Position numbers and translations under genes: made by a program. Under the pieces are notes generated by a model. That model saw only the letters and a list, made by a program, of their open reading frames with translations, was not told where the DNA came from and searched no databases. This document shows positions 10,789 through 17,314 of a DNA stretch of 64,000 nt, in pieces. Origin of the DNA: Actinotalea solisilvae (GTDB taxonomy: Bacteria > Actinomycetota > Actinomycetes > Actinomycetales > Cellulomonadaceae); the NCBI RefSeq assembly GCF_016464425.1, contig NZ_JADDKQ010000023.1, forward strand, positions 1 to 64,000. The letters run 5' to 3'. The stretch's first letter is position 1. Each line of letters opens with the position of its first letter.

Positions 10789-12723
10789 TCAGGCGGCCGT
10801 GACCGTGCCGAGCACCGTCGTCCCGGCCGTGCCGCCCGCGGAGTAGCCGCCGGTGGGGCCGTCCGTCGCGCCGCCCACGACGACCTCGTAGGTGGCGCCC
10901 GCCTCGAGCGCGGCGGACGAGACGACGACGGACGCGGTCGCCTTGGCCGTCTCGAACGACGCGACGACGGTGCCGTCGTCGGCCACGAGCTGGACCACGG
11001 TGCCCGCCTCGGCGGCGCCGGAGAACGCGACGACCGCGGTGCCCTGGCCGGACGACACCGGCGTGACGAGCATGCCCGCGCTGCCGGCGGCGACGAGCGT
11101 GCCGCCCGTCACGGCGAACGTGCCGTCGACGTCGAGCGCGCCGTTGCCGTCGTCCGTCGGGCCGTGGACGACCACGGTGCCGCCGCTCATCTCCGCCGCG
11201 GCGTTGGCGTCGAGGCCGTCGCCGCCGCTGCTCACCACGACGGTGCCGCCGCCGATGCGCAGGCCCACCTCGCCCGACGTCGTGCCGCCCGGGGTGCCGC
11301 CGCCCGTCCCCGTCTCGACGAGCGTGAGGTCCTCGGCCGCGGTGCCCGCAGCGGACCCGCCCGACGTGCCGCTGGCCGTGCCGCCTGCCACGCCGGGCGC
11401 CGCGCCGACGCCGCCGCCGCGGCCGCCGCCCGGGCGCGTGCCCGTGCCCTGCGGCGGGCCGGCGGGCGCGCCGGCACCCATGCCCGCGTCGCCCGAGCCG
11501 CCCGGACCCGAGAGTCCCGAGCCGTCGGCGCCGCCGGCGACGTTGATGCCGTCGTCGGTCGCGGTGACGTCGACGGAGCCGTCGGTGATCGTCACCGTGC
11601 CGCCCTCGAGCCCTTCGTAGGACGTCGTGACCACGACGGTGCCGCCCGCCACGGTGAGCGCGCCGTCGGCGTGGGCGCCGTCGTCGGCGCTCGCGAGCGT
11701 GAGCCGGCCACCCGAGACGGTCAGCGCGCCGTTCGAGTGCAGCGCGTCGTCGGACGAGTCGAGGTCGAGCGAGCCGCCGCTGACGACGACGCTCACGCCA
11801 CCCTTGAGGCCCTTGGTCGACACGTCCTGCGTGACGGTCCCGGTGCTGCCGCCGCCCGCCGTGACGGCGAGCGTGCCGCCCGTGACGAGCGCGTCCGTGA
11901 ACGCGTCGACGCCGTCGCCGTCCGCCACGACGGTCACCTCGCCGCCGTTCACGGCGACGTAGCCCGCGGCCGCGTCCTCCTCGTCGTCTGACCGGAGGCC
12001 GTCGCCCCCGGCGGTGAGCGTGAGCACGCCGTCGTCGACCACGACGTAGTCCTTGCCGCGCAGCGCGTCGTCGACGGCCTCGACCGTGACCGCTCCGCCG
12101 GCGACGACGAGCCCGTCCTTGCTCGCGATGCCGTCGGCGCTGCGGCCCTGGACGGTGAGCGAGCCCGTGCCGGCGATGGTGAGGTCGGCGGCGCTGAAGA
12201 GCGCGGCGTTCGGCGCGTCCTCGCCGGTGACGAGGTACTGGGTCGCGTCCGTGAGGATGTTCTCCGTGCCCTCGGCGAGCTCGACGACGACCTCCTCGGC
12301 GTCGGTGACGACGAGCGCGCTGCCCGTGGGGCTCGTGATGTCGACGCCGTCGAGCACGAGGCGCACGATGCCGTCGTCTGCCGTCGCGACGACCACCTGG
12401 CCCTCGAACGTCCCGCTCAGGCGGTAGGTGCCGGCGGCGGTCACGGTGACGACGCCGTCCGTGACGCTCACGGCGTCGGACGTGCTCGTCGCGGACGTCC
12501 CGTCGAGGGTCACGGCCTCCTCGCTCGCGGTGTCCCAGACGTGGTCCTCCGCGTCGTCGTGGTCGACGAGGTTCTCGGTCGTCGCCGCCTCCACGGAGGT
12601 CGACGTGGTGGCGGTGGTCGACGTCGTGGACGACGCCGCGGGCGTGGCCGCCGTGCTGCAGCCGCCGACGAGGGCGAGGGCTGCGGCGAGCGGCAGGAGG
12701 CGGGGGGTGCGGGGGAGTCGCAT
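10789..12723 (-). CDS. DUF4353 carbohydrate-binding-type lipoprotein (Cthe_2159-like)
   Basis: The 644-residue protein has a lipoprotein signal (LPLAAALALVGGCSTAATP) and a Ser/Thr linker, then repeated beta-strand units with recurring TVTITDGSVDV- and GALTVSGGRLTL-like phrases, the pattern of the DUF4353 right-handed beta-helix. The founding member, Cthe_2159, binds cellulose and polygalacturonate. A Gly-rich insertion (about residues 415-470) and GTG/GGT repeats interrupt the helix. The protein would sit on the outer face of the membrane. Bacterial VTC and DUF4956 genes often neighbour DUF4353 and CotH genes, as here, although no CotH gene is seen. The ATG at 12723 gives the lipobox. Confidence 0.85.
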   Translation of the reverse strand: MRLPRTPRLLPLAAALALVGGCSTAATPAASSTTSTTATTSTSVEAATTENLVDHDDAEDHVWDTASEEAVTLDGTSATSTSDAVSVTDGVVTVTAAGTYRLSGTFEGQVVVATADDGIVRLVLDGVDITSPTGSALVVTDAEEVVVELAEGTENILTDATQYLVTGEDAPNAALFSAADLTIAGTGSLTVQGRSADGIASKDGLVVAGGAVTVEAVDDALRGKDYVVVDDGVLTLTAGGDGLRSDDEEDAAAGYVAVNGGEVTVVADGDGVDAFTDALVTGGTLAVTAGGGSTGTVTQDVSTKGLKGGVSVVVSGGSLDLDSSDDALHSNGALTVSGGRLTLASADDGAHADGALTVAGGTVVVTTSYEGLEGGTVTITDGSVDVTATDDGINVAGGADGSGLSGPGGSGDAGMGAGAPAGPPQGTGTRPGGGRGGGVGAAPGVAGGTASGTSGGSAAGTAAEDLTLVETGTGGGTPGGTTSGEVGLRIGGGTVVVSSGGDGLDANAAAEMSGGTVVVHGPTDDGNGALDVDGTFAVTGGTLVAAGSAGMLVTPVSSGQGTAVVAFSGAAEAGTVVQLVADDGTVVASFETAKATASVVVSSAALEAGATYEVVVGGATDGPTGGYSAGGTAGTTVLGTVTAA

Positions 12724-12785
12724 GAGGTGCTCCGGTGATGTCGGTGGTGCGGGTGGGGTGGTGGTCCGAGCGTGCGCGGCCGCGC

Positions 12786-12829
12786 TGTGCCGTCCCGGTG
12801 CGGTCCCTGTGGGCCGGCTGAGCGCAGTG
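12786..12829 (+). promoter_or_regulatory. four-box 11-bp direct-repeat operator, copy 1
   Basis: Boxes at 12786 (TGTGCC), 12797 (GGTGCG), 12808 (TGTGGG) and 12819 (TGAGCG) are phased at 11 bp. It lies 63 bp upstream of the DUF4353 start and reads opposite to the gene. The third box, TGTGGGCCGGC, matches those of copies 2-4. It is a predicted target of the OmpR-type regulator at 14437. Confidence 0.55.
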
Positions 12830-12851
12830 CCGCGACCGAGGTCCCGTGCGG

Positions 12852-13652
12852 TCAGGCCTCGAGGAAGGGGTGCCGGCGCAGCACGGGGCGCCAGCGTGAG
12901 GCCGGCAGCGCCGGCGCGAGCGCCGCGAGACCGGTCGCGTACTTGGAGATCCGGCTCGGCCGGTGGCCCGCACGCCACAGGAGGTGGTCGACGGCCGAGG
13001 CGTGCCCGGCCGTCTTGGTCTCCACGACGACGCGGTCCGGGAGGGCGACGCGGCGTCCCGCCCCTGCGTGGAGCCCGACGACCGCGTCGGGCGTGAGCGT
13101 GCAGACGAGCTCGGTGTCGAGGGTCACGCGGCTGTCGTCGTCGGGCAGGTGCAGCGTGGAGCGCTGGTAGCGGGTCACGAGCGTGGGGCGCAGCGGCGCG
13201 GGCGGCGCGGTCACGCCCGCTGCGCCGAGGACGGCGTCGACGAAGCCGGTGCCGTCGGACGTGAGGTGCGCGGGGTCGGCGTCGTGCGGGGCCCGGTGCT
13301 TGACGGTGCGGCCGCGGCGGTCGCGCGTCTTGACCTCGAGCCAGCGCTCGTCCGACGCGAGGTAGGTGCGCGTGCGGACCTTCCACCGCAGCGGGCGTCG
13401 CCGCGCCGCGAGCAGGTACGAGTCGAGGGCGGCGGTGTCGAAGTACACGGACGCGTAGCCGAAGGTGCGCTCGCCGTCGATCTCGAGCACGCGTGCGGTG
13501 CCGCGGAGCCGGTCGAGGAGCCGCGCGGCGTCGTCGACCGGGACGACGTACTTGCGGTCGACCCGCGTGAGCAGCGCGGCGCGGGCGGTGAGCTCGTCGA
13601 GCCCCAGCGGGGCGAGCTCGGTGACGGGCAGGTGGTCGGCGGTCACGGTCAT
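12852..13652 (-). CDS. VTC domain polyphosphate polymerase family protein
   Basis: The 266-residue protein consists of a VTC/CYTH-like tunnel domain. Basic and acidic tunnel residues are visible in LLTRVDRKYVVP, KVRTRTYL, WLEVKTRDRRGRTVKHR, VTRYQRSTL and VVVETKTAGH. Eukaryotic VTC4 polymerises ATP gamma-phosphate into polyphosphate; bacterial homologues are usually paired with DUF4956 membrane proteins, and their product is less certain. The ATG at 13652 overlaps the stop of the upstream DUF4956 gene (ATGA), so the two are translationally coupled. The C-terminus lies near the DUF4353 promoter region. Confidence 0.88.
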   Translation of the reverse strand: MTVTADHLPVTELAPLGLDELTARAALLTRVDRKYVVPVDDAARLLDRLRGTARVLEIDGERTFGYASVYFDTAALDSYLLAARRRPLRWKVRTRTYLASDERWLEVKTRDRRGRTVKHRAPHDADPAHLTSDGTGFVDAVLGAAGVTAPPAPLRPTLVTRYQRSTLHLPDDDSRVTLDTELVCTLTPDAVVGLHAGAGRRVALPDRVVVETKTAGHASAVDHLLWRAGHRPSRISKYATGLAALAPALPASRWRPVLRRHPFLEA

Positions 13653-14236
13653 CGGGTCCCGCCCGTCGTCGTGCGGACGCGCGCCGGGACGGAGGCGCCG
13701 ACCTCGTACCGGACGTCCACGAGGGTCGTGTCGAGGACGAGGTCGACCTCCTGCACGACGGCGACGTGCACGCGGGCCCCGAGCAGCTGCTCGAGGTGCG
13801 CGACGAGCGCCGTGTGGTCGGTGAAGGCCGCGTCGAGGTGCATGAGCTGCGCGCGGTACCGGGGGAGGAGGCGTGGGTGGTCGCCGACCGCGAGCACGAG
13901 GACCACCAGCGCGCTCATCGCCACGACGGCCGCGAGCGGCGTCGCGGCGAGCCCGGCCACGAGGCCGAGCGCGAGCGCCGAGAAGTAGTAGGCGACCTCG
14001 TGCTGGCCGAGCTCGGTCGAGCGGAGCCGGATGATCGAGAGGACGCCGAAGAGACCCAGGCCGAGGCCGGCGCCGACCGTCGTGGCGCCCAGCGTCGCCG
14101 CGACCGCGAGGACCCCGACGTTGACGCCGAGGTAGGCGACCACGAGCTCGCGACGCCGGTGCCGGCGGACGTAGAGCGTCGTGAGGACGGTGATCGCGAC
14201 GAGGTCGACGAGGTAGGGCAGGAGGGTCGTGGTCAT
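13649..14236 (-). CDS. DUF4956 integral membrane protein
   Basis: The 195-residue protein has about four TM helices in the first 120 residues (PYLVDLVAITVLTTLYV, ELVVAYLGVNVGVLAVAATL, GLGLGLFGVLSIIRLR, then ALALGLVAGLAATPLAAVVA). The conserved cytoplasmic phrase FGVLSIIRLRSTELGQHEVAYYF is the DUF4956 signature, and a soluble C-terminal domain follows. The family accompanies VTC-domain proteins and may anchor them or pass product across the membrane; this is inference from co-occurrence. It is first in a two-gene leftward operon. Confidence 0.87.
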   Translation of the reverse strand: MTTTLLPYLVDLVAITVLTTLYVRRHRRRELVVAYLGVNVGVLAVAATLGATTVGAGLGLGLFGVLSIIRLRSTELGQHEVAYYFSALALGLVAGLAATPLAAVVAMSALVVLVLAVGDHPRLLPRYRAQLMHLDAAFTDHTALVAHLEQLLGARVHVAVVQEVDLVLDTTLVDVRYEVGASVPARVRTTTGGTR

Positions 14237-14290
14237 GGGTGCTCCAGGGTCGGTGGTGCGAGGTGCTGGAGCGACTCTGGGAGGCGCCTC

Positions 14291-14334
14291 TGTGGGCCCG
14301 CTGCGCCGACCCTGTGAGCCGGTTGTGAGGCGCG
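14291..14334 (+). promoter_or_regulatory. four-box 11-bp direct-repeat operator, copy 2
   Basis: Boxes at 14291 (TGTGGG), 14302 (TGCGCC), 14313 (TGTGAG) and 14324 (TGTGAG) are 11 bp apart. The last two form a perfect TGTGAG direct repeat, as in OmpR-family operators. It lies 55 bp upstream of the DUF4956 start and reads opposite to this gene. Confidence 0.7.
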
Positions 14335-14369
14335 GCGCCGTGCCCGGGTGCTTGCGGCGCGCTGCGGGG

Positions 14370-14413
14370 AGGCGTCCACAGCGGGCTCACAGACTCGTCC
14401 CAGGCGACGCACG
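14370..14413 (-). promoter_or_regulatory. four-box 11-bp direct-repeat operator, copy 3
   Basis: Read on the minus strand, boxes start at 14413 (CGTGCG), 14402 (TGGGAC), 14391 (TGTGAG) and 14380 (TGTGGA). It lies 24 bp upstream of the response-regulator start and reads opposite to the gene, as at the other three sites, implying autoregulation. Confidence 0.65.
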
Positions 14414-14436
14414 GGCACGGGGCGGACCATGGGCGC

Positions 14437-15186
14437 ATGAGCAGCCGCCCCGCCTCCGCGCCCGACGTCCTCACCCGGCCGGACGGCTCGCCGATCCGCG
14501 CGCTCGTCGTCGACGACGAGCCGGCGCTCGGCGACCTCCTGTCGACCGTCCTGCGGTACGAGGGCTGGCAGGTCGAGACGGCCCTGACCGGGCAGGCCGC
14601 GATCCGCGCCGCGCGGGCGCAGGCGCCCGACGTCGTCGTCCTCGACGTCATGCTCCCCGACCTCACCGGGCTCGAGGTGCTGCGCCGCATCCGTGCCGTC
14701 CACCCTGAGGTGCCCGTGCTCTTCCTCACCGCGAAAGACGCCGTGGAGGACCGCATCGCGGGGCTCACGGCGGGGGGCGACGACTACGTGACCAAGCCGT
14801 TCAGCCTCGAGGAGGTCGTCGCCCGGCTGCGCGGGCTGCTGCGCCGCGCGGGGGCGACGGCCGCGCGCGAGGGCAGCGTCCTCGTCGTCGGGGACCTGCG
14901 GCTCGACGAGGACAGCCACGAGGTGTTCCGGGGCGCGGACGCGATCACGCTCACGGCGACCGAGTTCGAGCTGCTGCGGTTCTTCATGCGCAACCCGCGC
15001 CGCGTGCTGTCCAAGGCGCAGATCCTCGACCGGGTCTGGCAGTACGACTTCGGCGGGCAGGCCAACATCGTCGAGCTGTACGTGTCCTACCTGCGCCGCA
15101 AGGTCGACGCCGGGCGCGCGCCCATGATCCACACGCTCCGGGGCGCCGGGTACCTGCTCAAGGCGGCGGACGGGTCCGGCGCGTGA
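14437..15186 (+). CDS. OmpR/PhoB family response regulator
   Basis: The 249-residue protein has a receiver domain (IRALVVDDEPALGDLL, phospho-acceptor Asp70 in VVVLDVMLPD, switch Lys in DDYVTKPFS) and an OmpR-type winged helix (LTATEFELLRFFMRNPRRVL, then the YVSYLRRKVD recognition helix and the HTLRGAGYLL wing). It resembles the actinobacterial TrcR/MprA group. The stop overlaps the GTG of the kinase gene by 4 bases, so the pair is coupled. Four identical-architecture direct-repeat sites in the surrounding 4 kb are likely its targets. Confidence 0.95.
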   Translation: MSSRPASAPDVLTRPDGSPIRALVVDDEPALGDLLSTVLRYEGWQVETALTGQAAIRAARAQAPDVVVLDVMLPDLTGLEVLRRIRAVHPEVPVLFLTAKDAVEDRIAGLTAGGDDYVTKPFSLEEVVARLRGLLRRAGATAAREGSVLVVGDLRLDEDSHEVFRGADAITLTATEFELLRFFMRNPRRVLSKAQILDRVWQYDFGGQANIVELYVSYLRRKVDAGRAPMIHTLRGAGYLLKAADGSGA

Positions 15187-16778
15187 GGTGGACCCTGCGG
15201 CGGCGGCTCGTCGCCGTGCTCGTCGGGCTGCTCGTCACGGTCGCCGCCGTCATGGGTGCCGTGTCGACGCTCGCGCTGCGCGGCTCGCTCGTCGACCAGC
15301 TCGACGAGGGGCTCGAGGCGTCGAGCGACCGCGCGCTCTCGGCGCAGGACGGTCAGGGCGACCGCGACCGCGGCCCGGGCGGGCCGCCGTCGGCGTGGGA
15401 CGACGGCGACGGGGGCGACGCGCCGCCGCCGGGCCTCGACGCACCCGGCCAGGGCGCCGGGACCGTCAACCTGACGGTCGACGACGGCACCGCGGTCGGT
15501 GGCTTCATCGACGCCGACGGCAGCCTCCGGCGGCTCACGGACGCCCAGGTCGCGACGCTCGAGGACGTCGAGCCCGACGAGGGCCCGACGACGGTCGACC
15601 TCGAGGAGCTGGGACGCTACCGGGTGCTCGCGGCCACCGGCCGCGACGGCGACCTCGTCGTCACCGGGCTCTCCACCGCCGTCGCCGACGCGACGGTGCG
15701 GGAGTACCTCGTCGCGGAGGTGCTCGTCGCGGCGGCCGGGATCACGCTCGCCGCCGTCGCCGGGGGTGCGCTGGTGCGGCGCGAGCTCGAGCCGCTCGAG
15801 CGGGTGGCGTCGACCGCGGCGCGCGTGTCCGAGCTGCCGCTGCACGAGGGCGAGGTGGTCATCGGCGAGCGCGTCCCGGAACGCGACACGGACCCCTCGA
15901 CCGAGGTGGGCCAGGTGGGCGCCGCGCTCAACCGGCTCCTCGGTCACGTCGAGGGCGCGCTCGCGTCCCGGCACGAGAGCGAGACGCAGGTGCGGCGCTT
16001 CGTCGCCGACGCGAGCCACGAGCTGCGCACGCCGCTCGCGTCGATCCGCGGGTACGCCGAGCTGGTCCGCCGGATGCCCGGCGAGCTGCCGCCCGACGCC
16101 GTGCGCGCGATGGAGCGCGTCGAGTCGGAGTCGCGGCGCATGACGACGCTCGTCGAGGACATGCTGCTCCTCGCGCGCCTCGACGCGGGCCGCCCGCTCG
16201 ACCGCTCGCCGGTGGACCTCACGGTGCTGGCGGTGGACGCCGTCGCGGACGCGCACGCAGCCGGGCCGGACCACCGCTGGCGGCTGGAGCTCGCCGGGTC
16301 GTCGGGGGCGGGAGGCGTCGACGGGCCGGACGTCGACCGTGCCGGGGCGCCGGAGCTCCGCGACCCGGCAGAGGCGGGCGACCCGCCGGACGACGTCGTC
16401 CCGGACGCTGTCGTCCCGGGCGACGAGGACCGCCTGCGCCAGGTGCTCGCCAACCTCCTCGCGAACGCGCGCGTGCACACGCCGGCGGGCACCACGGTGA
16501 CGACCACGGTGCGGCGGGACGGCGGGTCCGTCGTGGTCGAGGTCGCCGACGACGGCCCCGGCATCCCCGTCGCGCAGCAGCCCACGCTCTTCCAGCGCTT
16601 CACGCGGGGCGATGCCGCACGCTCGCCCGGGAGCGGCTCGACGGGCCTCGGCCTCGCGATCGTGGACGCGGTGGTGCGCGCGCACGGCGGCCGTCTCGCC
16701 GTCGAGAGCGTCCCGGGTGACACCCGGGTCACGGTGGTCCTGCCCGCGGCGCCGCCCTCGGACGCCGAGGCGCGCTGA
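15183..16778 (+). CDS. sensor histidine kinase
   Basis: The 531-residue protein has TM1 near residues 8-34, an acidic Gly/Asp-rich extracytoplasmic domain (to about 178), TM2 near 180-200, a HAMP segment, a dimerisation/phospho-acceptor region (VADASHELRTPLASIRG, His279), the N box (LANLLANARVHTP), and G1/G2 boxes (ADDGPGIPV, STGLGLAIVDAVV). An unusual Asp/Pro-rich insertion, about 375-420, lies between HisKA and the ATPase N box. It partners the regulator at 14437. The GTG start is fixed by the GTGA overlap. Confidence 0.95.
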   Translation: MRWTLRRRLVAVLVGLLVTVAAVMGAVSTLALRGSLVDQLDEGLEASSDRALSAQDGQGDRDRGPGGPPSAWDDGDGGDAPPPGLDAPGQGAGTVNLTVDDGTAVGGFIDADGSLRRLTDAQVATLEDVEPDEGPTTVDLEELGRYRVLAATGRDGDLVVTGLSTAVADATVREYLVAEVLVAAAGITLAAVAGGALVRRELEPLERVASTAARVSELPLHEGEVVIGERVPERDTDPSTEVGQVGAALNRLLGHVEGALASRHESETQVRRFVADASHELRTPLASIRGYAELVRRMPGELPPDAVRAMERVESESRRMTTLVEDMLLLARLDAGRPLDRSPVDLTVLAVDAVADAHAAGPDHRWRLELAGSSGAGGVDGPDVDRAGAPELRDPAEAGDPPDDVVPDAVVPGDEDRLRQVLANLLANARVHTPAGTTVTTTVRRDGGSVVVEVADDGPGIPVAQQPTLFQRFTRGDAARSPGSGSTGLGLAIVDAVVRAHGGRLAVESVPGDTRVTVVLPAAPPSDAEAR

Positions 16779-16781
16779 CCC

Positions 16782-16825
16782 GTCGGTGCACAGCCTGCTC
16801 ACAGGCGCGGGCGACCGTGGGCACA
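16782..16825 (-). promoter_or_regulatory. four-box 11-bp direct-repeat operator, copy 4
   Basis: Read on the minus strand, boxes start at 16825 (TGTGCC), 16814 (TCGCCC), 16803 (TGTGAG) and 16792 (TGTGCA). It starts 3 bases after the kinase stop codon and ends 64 bp upstream of the small membrane protein gene, reading opposite to this gene. Confidence 0.65.
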
Positions 16826-16888
16826 GGTTCGCGCGGTCCCCTGGTGCCTCGACCACCGGACGACCAGCACGTCCCACGAGGAGACGCC

Positions 16889-17314
16889 ATGACCACCGCA
16901 CCGACAGGACCGCAGGACGGCCCGCACGACGCCGCAGCACCCGACGCGACGCCCACCGGAACCCAGGCGGACGGGGCGACGCCCGGGGCGGAGCACGCCG
17001 TCGCGGCGCCGCCGCCGACCCCGACGCGCACCATGCCCACCGCCCGCGAGCGCGTCGTCGCGCGGCCCTGGCTCGCCCTCGGCCTCACGGCCGTGCTCGC
17101 TGCCGGCCTCGCGGGCGGCACGGGCTTCGCGGTCGGTCACGCCGTGGGCGACGAGGGCGGTCCCGGTCTCGAGCGGCACGGCGGTCCCTGGGGCGACGAG
17201 GGCGTGCTGCCGGGCGGCCCGGGCGGGCGTCCCGGCGACGGCTGGCGCGGTCGCGACGACCGTGCCGACGCGTCACCCGAGGACCTGCCCGACGACGCGT
17301 CGTCCGGCACCTAG
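16889..17314 (+). CDS. small single-pass membrane protein, Asp/Gly-rich, predicted two-component target
   Basis: The 141-residue product has a Thr/Pro/Ala-rich cytoplasmic head (about residues 1-65), one TM helix (WLALGLTAVLAAGLAGGTGF) and an outward Gly/Asp/Arg-rich tail (GGPWGDEGVLPGGPGGRPGD style). No family is recognised. GAGGAG precedes the ATG at 16889. It follows the kinase gene but has its own predicted regulator site, and a terminator follows directly. Being adjacent and sharing the operator, it may be a partner or output of this two-component system; this is inference. Confidence 0.75.
   Translation: MTTAPTGPQDGPHDAAAPDATPTGTQADGATPGAEHAVAAPPPTPTRTMPTARERVVARPWLALGLTAVLAAGLAGGTGFAVGHAVGDEGGPGLERHGGPWGDEGVLPGGPGGRPGDGWRGRDDRADASPEDLPDDASSGT

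Follow-up and report, generated by a model that had tools for sequence, protein, structure and literature searches.

A locus within the first 64 kb of the Actinotalea solisilvae contig NZ_JADDKQ010000023.1 (this whole stretch, positions 1 to 64,000, is called the window below) appears to be the core of a small PhoP-type two-component regulon. In it a response regulator that we call RR-A, together with its sensor kinase, would act through arrays of the 11-bp unit NCACAGN5 at its own promoter and at that of a DUF4956-VTC operon encoding a predicted polyphosphate polymerase, and probably also at the promoter of a gene for a small membrane protein. We give this reading a probability of about 0.83. 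It is drawn from sequence comparison, namely from the arrays themselves, their conservation, their co-occurrence with RR-A in the Cellulomonadaceae, and a joint change of one box letter and one residue of the regulator across lineages.

Four sites, A to D, read as arrays of this unit on the strand of the gene downstream. Site A (CTCAG/CACAG/CACCG/CACAG; 12785–12822, minus strand) ends 61 bp before the start codon of a DUF4353 gene, and site B (CACAA/CACAG/CGCAG/CACAG; 14290–14327, minus strand), the predicted operator of the DUF4956-VTC operon, ends 53 bp before its start codon. Site C (CACAG/CACAG/CCCAG/CACGG; 14377–14414, plus strand), the predicted autoregulatory operator, ends 22 bp before the start codon of RR-A, and site D (CACAG/CACAG/GCGAC/CACAG; 16789–16826, plus strand) ends 62 bp before that of the small membrane protein. 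The initial annotation had described four copies of a 44-bp four-box operator reading opposite to their genes. Re-read coordinates and a scan of the window confirm the four places and their 11-bp phasing, but the opposite reading is an artefact of the strand chosen, as the canonical box reads with the gene, and the consensus TGTGNN given for the first box does not fit site C, which has CGTG on the strand in question. The sites are better described as a multi-copy PhoP-type box than as a 44-bp operator.

Four-box arrays matching at least 16 of 20 letters at the 11-bp phase are present six times in the window (in overlapping registers), all within sites A–D, whereas other box spacings from 6 to 23 bp give none or one, and 60 windows simulated with a first-order model gave a mean of 0.05 and a maximum of 1. 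This restriction of the arrays to the four sites upholds the proposal of an OmpR-type direct-repeat operator. A three-box pattern has six matches in the window against 0.63 expected, all in sites A, B and C; in the whole genome (4.3 Mb) it is found with up to two mismatches at eight places, six of them in sites A–C, and all three of its one-mismatch places lie in A, B and C. Since the reversed control of this pattern gives 11 places genome-wide, its looser matches are at background level. Nor is a loose two-box pattern (two mismatches) enriched genome-wide, with 219 places against 343 for the reversed control, as would be expected if the repeats were a composition artefact of a GC-rich genome. 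We regard such an artefact as extremely improbable, because the arrays are specific to 11 bp and, within the window, to this locus, and because in relatives they stand upstream of the orthologues and not in flanking bins.

RR-A (14437–15186, plus strand; 249 residues) has the Response_reg and Trans_reg_C domains of the OmpR/PhoB family (PF00072, E 1e-29; PF00486, E 2.4e-25), and its nearest solved relative is PhoP of Mycobacterium tuberculosis (E 1e-77, 263 bits). A paralogue, RR-B, about 56–62% identical to the window regulator, scores 286 bits against the same PhoP, and we therefore place RR-A in a PhoP-like group and do not call it a PhoP orthologue, a name reserved for the regulator closest to PhoP in its genome, the comparison here being by bit score only. 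In the sections on DNA contacts of the PhoP-DNA structure report (PMC4832192), the M. tuberculosis operator is given as TCACAGC-N4-TCACAGC, its spacing as strict, and cooperative binding is reported on three and on four repeats. Of the six base-contacting residues named in those sections, four are identical in the window regulator and two are changed (V213I and S216L). The window arrays, made of 7-bp NCACAGC-like units in one orientation at a strict 11-bp phase, have the form of a PhoP-type direct-repeat operator.

In the Cellulomonadaceae, RR-A (E <= 1e-90) is found in 131 of 200 genomes and DUF4956 in 128, with both in 97; G068, with a weak DUF4956 match (E 7.9e-4), was excluded from the 129. 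The encoded regulator had been named as the likely owner of the boxes, and this is supported by its own promoter, which carries the array at 48 of 49 family loci, the window locus included (best matches, drawn from the 131 genomes with RR-A). For DUF4956, 60 genomes and then 40 more were selected from the 128 with a strong match, the first 60 for spread and the second set weighted to genomes without RR-A and to mixed genera. CACAG pairs (at least 9 of 10 letters) at 11 bp lie upstream of DUF4956 in 43 of the first 60 relatives, and other spacings in 0–6 of 60, except for 22 bp (24), which is a multiple of 11 bp. Over ±6 kb in these 60 stretches, there are 60 sense and 16 antisense pairs in the 500 bp upstream of DUF4956, and 0–3 in the other bins. 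RR-A adjoins DUF4956 in only 6 of the 60 and lies elsewhere in many genomes. The DUF4956 promoter has boxes in 39 of 41 genomes with RR-A vs 4 of 19 without it among the first 60, and a fresh test on the 40 further genomes gave 21 of 28 vs 1 of 12. Over all 100 genomes the counts are 60 of 69 vs 5 of 31 (Fisher p 9e-12, kinship ignored), in support of the link to the DUF4956-VTC operon that had been drawn from the window. The wiring of this operon differs by lineage, and most relatives without RR-A are also without boxes. Two genomes have a DUF4956-like frame of very distant similarity beside RR-A (G111:C22:173883-176199 and G117:C1:1235931-1238237), the main DUF4956 gene being elsewhere in both.

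The arrays could be real and still be read by another CACAG-reading regulator of the OmpR type, RR-B for example, with RR-A adjacent in some genomes only. RR-B is the nearer of the two to PhoP, five genomes without RR-A carry the pair, and RR-A is seldom a neighbour of DUF4956, all of which would fit. The promoters of RR-B itself, however, carry CCCAG 11-bp repeats in 15 of 20 genomes and CACAG repeats in 2 of 20 (L325–L344), the DUF4956 boxes go with the presence of RR-A, and in each Micrococcales group the boxes of RR-A share their letter with the VTC boxes and follow the recognition residue of RR-A, so that ownership by another regulator seems to us quite improbable. One array in the window's genome (G000:C5:38068-38107; L011 1490-1530), CTCCCAG/CTCCCAG/TCACAG, lies about 40 bp before the start of an HtrA-like trypsin/PDZ protease. 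We rejected this gene (G000:C5:38069) as a target of RR-A, as its boxes are closer to the RR-B type, which suggests an RR-B regulon including HtrA.

A search for words at 11-bp spacing before DUF4956, with no motif set in advance, returned CACAG in 39 of 41 Cellulomonadaceae with RR-A and in all 13 Micrococcaceae, and CATAG in all 12 Microbacteriaceae and Ornithinimicrobium. A regulator 61–72% identical to RR-A is present in all 24 genomes searched (the Microbacteriaceae, Ornithinimicrobium and Micrococcaceae groups, and Nakamurella), and its promoters show the same letters, with CATAG at 12 of 12 Microbacteriaceae/Ornithinimicrobium loci and CACAG at 9 of 13 Micrococcaceae loci. Outside the Micrococcales, where RR-A (67–76% identical) was found in 15 of 21 genomes searched (Micromonosporaceae, Pseudonocardiaceae, Microbispora and one Streptomyces), 14 of the 15 RR-A promoters have a CACAG pair. 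Among the DUF4956 promoters the count is only 3 of 15, from two Actinoplanes and a Dactylosporangium. Autoregulation thus looks ancestral, and the VTC operon looks like a target gained mainly in the Micrococcales. The family names used for the named records outside the Cellulomonadaceae, and for the genomes around G226 and G227, are assigned from the genus names.

The most interesting addition to the initial annotation is a three-state match between one residue of the regulator and one base of its operator. In the contact description of PMC4832192, the recognition helix of PhoP begins with Asn212, which forms a hydrogen bond to C7, the middle C of TCACAGC. The counterpart in the window regulator is residue 210, also Asn. 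A perfect CANAG pair at 11 bp is present in 103 of 142 RR-A promoters, the other 39 being left out of the base counts, in which ties were assigned to the first box and a box shared by two pairs contributed to the base totals once for each pair. Among promoters of Asn forms, 56 of 57 have C as the majority central base (126 of 144 bases); it is T in 7 of 8 promoters of Ser forms (15 of 16 bases) and G in 33 of 38 of His forms (83 of 100 bases). The His forms come from the genus of a Streptomyces record and the family of a Microbispora record, and the lone Asn form with a pair in those two groups has C. When the helix columns are left out of the tree, no more than 2 changes are needed for the residue and 7 for the base, which are too few events for significance. 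Ornithinimicrobium is an exception, with Asn, yet CATAG before DUF4956 and mixed bases at its own promoter, and position 216 varies too, being Ile in 11 of 14 Ser forms. We consider it fairly probable that RR-A is an old actinobacterial regulator family in which a single amino acid has rewritten the operator: the residue that opens the recognition helix would set the central base of a CANAG 11-bp repeat that is otherwise fixed (C for Asn, T for Ser, G for His). Both the autoregulatory array and the polyphosphate-polymerase operon recruited in the Micrococcales would then have been re-lettered jointly, and in the Cellulomonadaceae the operon would carry RR-A boxes, PHO-box-like repeats, both kinds or none, depending on the lineage. 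A universal residue-base code was rejected, since RR-B has N, S or A at that position with CCCAG-type boxes, and the code is therefore proposed for RR-A alone. As a separate observation, 108 of 121 Streptomyces-genus genomes encode a regulator that resembles the RR-A of Microbispora, for the most part at about 73% identity, and a subset of them has a copy at 77–84% identity, most with CAGAG repeats at the promoter.

When the DUF4956 promoters are aligned on their last strong box, a T-G-G stands at +16 to +18 from the box G, at frequencies of 61–70% in 61 Cellulomonadaceae, 75–92% in 12 Microbacteriaceae/Ornithinimicrobium and 62–100% in 13 Micrococcaceae promoters. In our reading the TGG closes a -10 element and the array covers the -35 region, which makes activation likelier. 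Binding by RR-A, activation, a role for phosphorylation and a polyphosphate product are all inferred. Phosphorylated RR-A would bind head-to-tail, as a tandem dimer to tetramer with one subunit per NCACAGN5 unit, at site C in its own promoter and at site B in the divergent DUF4956-VTC promoter, and probably at site D before the small membrane-protein gene. The activator array would take the place of the -35 element, activation with positive autoregulation being the likelier direction.

Several observations weigh against this reading. Besides the loose two-box pattern, there are nine genomes, of the 69 with RR-A, in which no pair reaches the threshold. G092 and G063, both with a close RR-A, belong to the first 60; the seven others, from the fresh set, have an RR-A at most 73% identical to that of the window, and other genomes with an equally distant RR-A have boxes. 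The pair is also present in five of the 31 genomes without RR-A, some of the 31 being incomplete (G126 65%, G062 81%); the arrays at DUF4956 promoters without RR-A score 11–15 of 20. A paired test on the DUF4956 tree yielded 6 supported pairs, 2.8 the same way, 0.2 opposite and 3.0 without difference (median p 0.25), too few events to reach significance. In Cryobacterium, three second copies resembling RR-A, counted separately, have no array, and outside the Micrococcales there is the scarcity of pairs before DUF4956. Regarding the promoters, a TAnnnT hexamer does not recur downstream of the boxes, with a single case among 129 promoters aligned, and at the place of the conserved TGG the window reads TCG. 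No pair counterpart of site A was found from +500 to +3000 of DUF4956 in 60 stretches, and the open-licence literature yielded no binding or expression data on the RR-A system and nothing on this regulon.

The four sites differ in support, B and C being well supported by comparison with relatives and D partly. Conservation upstream of orthologues, which the initial annotation had made a test of its proposal, holds for sites B and C within the Micrococcales and fails for site A: none of 47 relatives has a pair at the estimated start of DUF4353, and in one relative (L066) 36 bp separate the aligned parts of VTC and DUF4353. Site A was thus rejected as a conserved operator, its counterpart being absent in the relatives examined, and is likely to be a species-level addition. 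Antisense CACAG pairs 22 bp apart were observed upstream of the estimated DUF4353 starts in 10 of 47 relatives, against 0–2 for other antisense spacings. Homologues of the small membrane protein lie beside the kinase in 3 of 25 distinct other RR-A neighbourhoods (L175, L177 and L181), with weaker arrays before them (15–16 of 20), so that its proposed membership is backed by the array of site D and weakened by this narrow distribution.

Only the divergent pair B and C might then be functional, with A and D due to chance or private to the species and the regulon reduced to the two-component system and DUF4956-VTC. The missing counterparts of site A, the rarity of the small membrane-protein gene and the strength of its arrays, about level with DUF4956 promoters without RR-A, would agree with this. 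On the other side, A and D stand far above the window background, both end 61–62 bp before start codons, and site D has an exact 10/10 pair, one of five in the whole genome, and we think the two-site regulon unlikely, though a serious possibility. The four-gene regulon first proposed accordingly stands in substance for B and C and in part for D, with A unproven.

The three other exact pairs in the genome were rejected as further targets: that at C21:451 is within a whiB frame, that at C6:29490 points away from the open reading frame behind it, and that at C25:115475 points toward an open reading frame for a siderophore-interacting protein. A stray array behind the kinase in L179 was rejected as well, with no convincing gene there. 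Behind the RR-A kinase in 3 of 26 stretches, and elsewhere in other cases (L187, L188, L192 and L313–L324), lies a GT2-GtrA glycosyltransferase gene (named by eye from the sequence), whose promoters have the 11-bp pair in 9 of 12 cases, other spacings occurring 0–1 times except 22 bp (3). The gene is present in 10 of 42 genomes searched; G151 and G066 have a second copy, and in each of these two genomes one copy is without boxes. As GT2-GtrA was not found in the window's genome and site A has no counterpart, the regulon there looks local, confined to this cluster.

We also searched the DUF4956 promoters for a second type of repeat, the PHO box GTTCACC of Streptomyces PhoP, as defined in the relevant section of PMC4415409, counting pairs with at least 12 of 14 letters on either strand at exactly 11 bp. 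Among the first 60 family genomes such pairs are present in 10 of 19 without RR-A and 9 of 41 with it, spacings of 8–15 bp otherwise giving 0–1. Over all 100 genomes, 38 have such pairs, 14 of 31 without RR-A and 24 of 69 with it (p 0.38), and PHO-box-like pairs are thus independent of RR-A. Elsewhere they precede DUF4956 at 5 of 7 Streptomyces, 6 of 26 Micromonosporaceae, 2 of 3 Microbispora and 1 of 12 Microbacteriaceae/Ornithinimicrobium loci, and at 0 of 8 Pseudonocardiales and 0 of 13 Micrococcaceae loci. The window's DUF4956 promoter has no GTTCACC pair of at least 11 of 14 letters at 11 bp and is not assigned to the Pho regulon. These distributions suggest that the operon may respond to phosphate in some lineages and be controlled by RR-A in others, a pattern that fits a polyphosphate role without proving it. 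GTTCACC repeats of up to 14 of 14 letters were seen upstream of DUF4956 in L071, L086, L122, L345, L351 and others.

Regarding the genes of the locus, the DUF4956 gene (13649–14236, minus strand; 195 residues; PF16316, E 4.3e-56) is the first of its operon and overlaps by 4 bp the VTC-domain gene (12852–13652, minus strand; 266 residues; PF09359, E 7.1e-28), as RR-A does the sensor histidine kinase gene (15183–16778, plus strand; 531 residues; HisKA and HATPase_c), both overlaps being confirmed by a check of the open reading frames. That check also covered the Cthe_2159-domain (DUF4353) gene downstream of site A (10789–12723, minus strand; 644 residues; PF14262, E 7.9e-86), the product of which has a lipoprotein-like N-terminus by eye. 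The small membrane protein (16889–17314, plus strand; 141 residues) shows, again by eye, one hydrophobic segment and a Gly/Asp-rich tail, and has no match in Pfam or NCBIfam. An acidic loop of the kinase was considered as a cation sensor and rejected, as it varies by eye among 15 relatives (the kinase was extracted from 15 of 25 tried), and since the loop differs among relatives we claim no signal for the kinase.

The polyphosphate role, one of the less well supported parts of the initial annotation, is read solely from the VTC domain. A VTC profile search matches yeast Vtc4 (PDB 3g3q and others, E 2.1e-07), while the protein as a single sequence gives spurious matches only against solved structures. 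In an alignment of the window protein and 18 relatives, with L076 and L263 omitted from the 20 prepared frames (L263 for its interrupted frame), the residues RxDRKY, KxRTRxY, ExK, TxD, ExK and SK are invariant, and we take these tunnel residues to be the catalytic ones. With the VTC domain and conserved tunnel residues, the protein is classed as a VTC polyphosphate polymerase of predicted activity. The VTC gene of the Clavibacter record (L263 8588-9500) matches in separate pieces.

These findings link a bacterial operon, DUF4956-VTC, present in several of the actinobacterial families examined here, to one particular regulator and its kinase, so that its expression conditions become testable in harmless genera such as Cellulomonas and Arthrobacter. 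They also provide a natural series of three states, a contact residue and an operator base changing jointly, in line with a solved PhoP-DNA contact, and thus a test case for how a two-component regulator shifts its DNA specificity yet keeps its targets.

A search of the open-licence literature found no publication on DUF4956 together with the VTC domain. In the passages of PMC7112168 on Pel clusters of Gram-positives, DUF4956 is described as contiguous with a predicted polyphosphate polymerase, together with CotH, a combination of DUF4956 and polymerase that the window shares. The genes in those passages adjoin Pel polysaccharide genes and CotH, neither of which was searched for in the window, and are there tied to no regulator. 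With yeast Vtc4 the window protein has the VTC domain in common, and it was found with that domain alone. The Streptomyces PhoP/PHO box, in the section of PMC4415409 that defines it, shares with the window arrays the layout of 11-bp direct repeats and differs in box sequence. A further close likeness is to PhoP of M. tuberculosis: as far as the contact sections of PMC4832192 describe it, this is an OmpR/PhoB-family regulator with a recognition region near-identical to that of RR-A and an operator of direct repeats of 7+4 bp at the same strict 11-bp phase, from which RR-A departs at the base-contacting residues 213 and 216.

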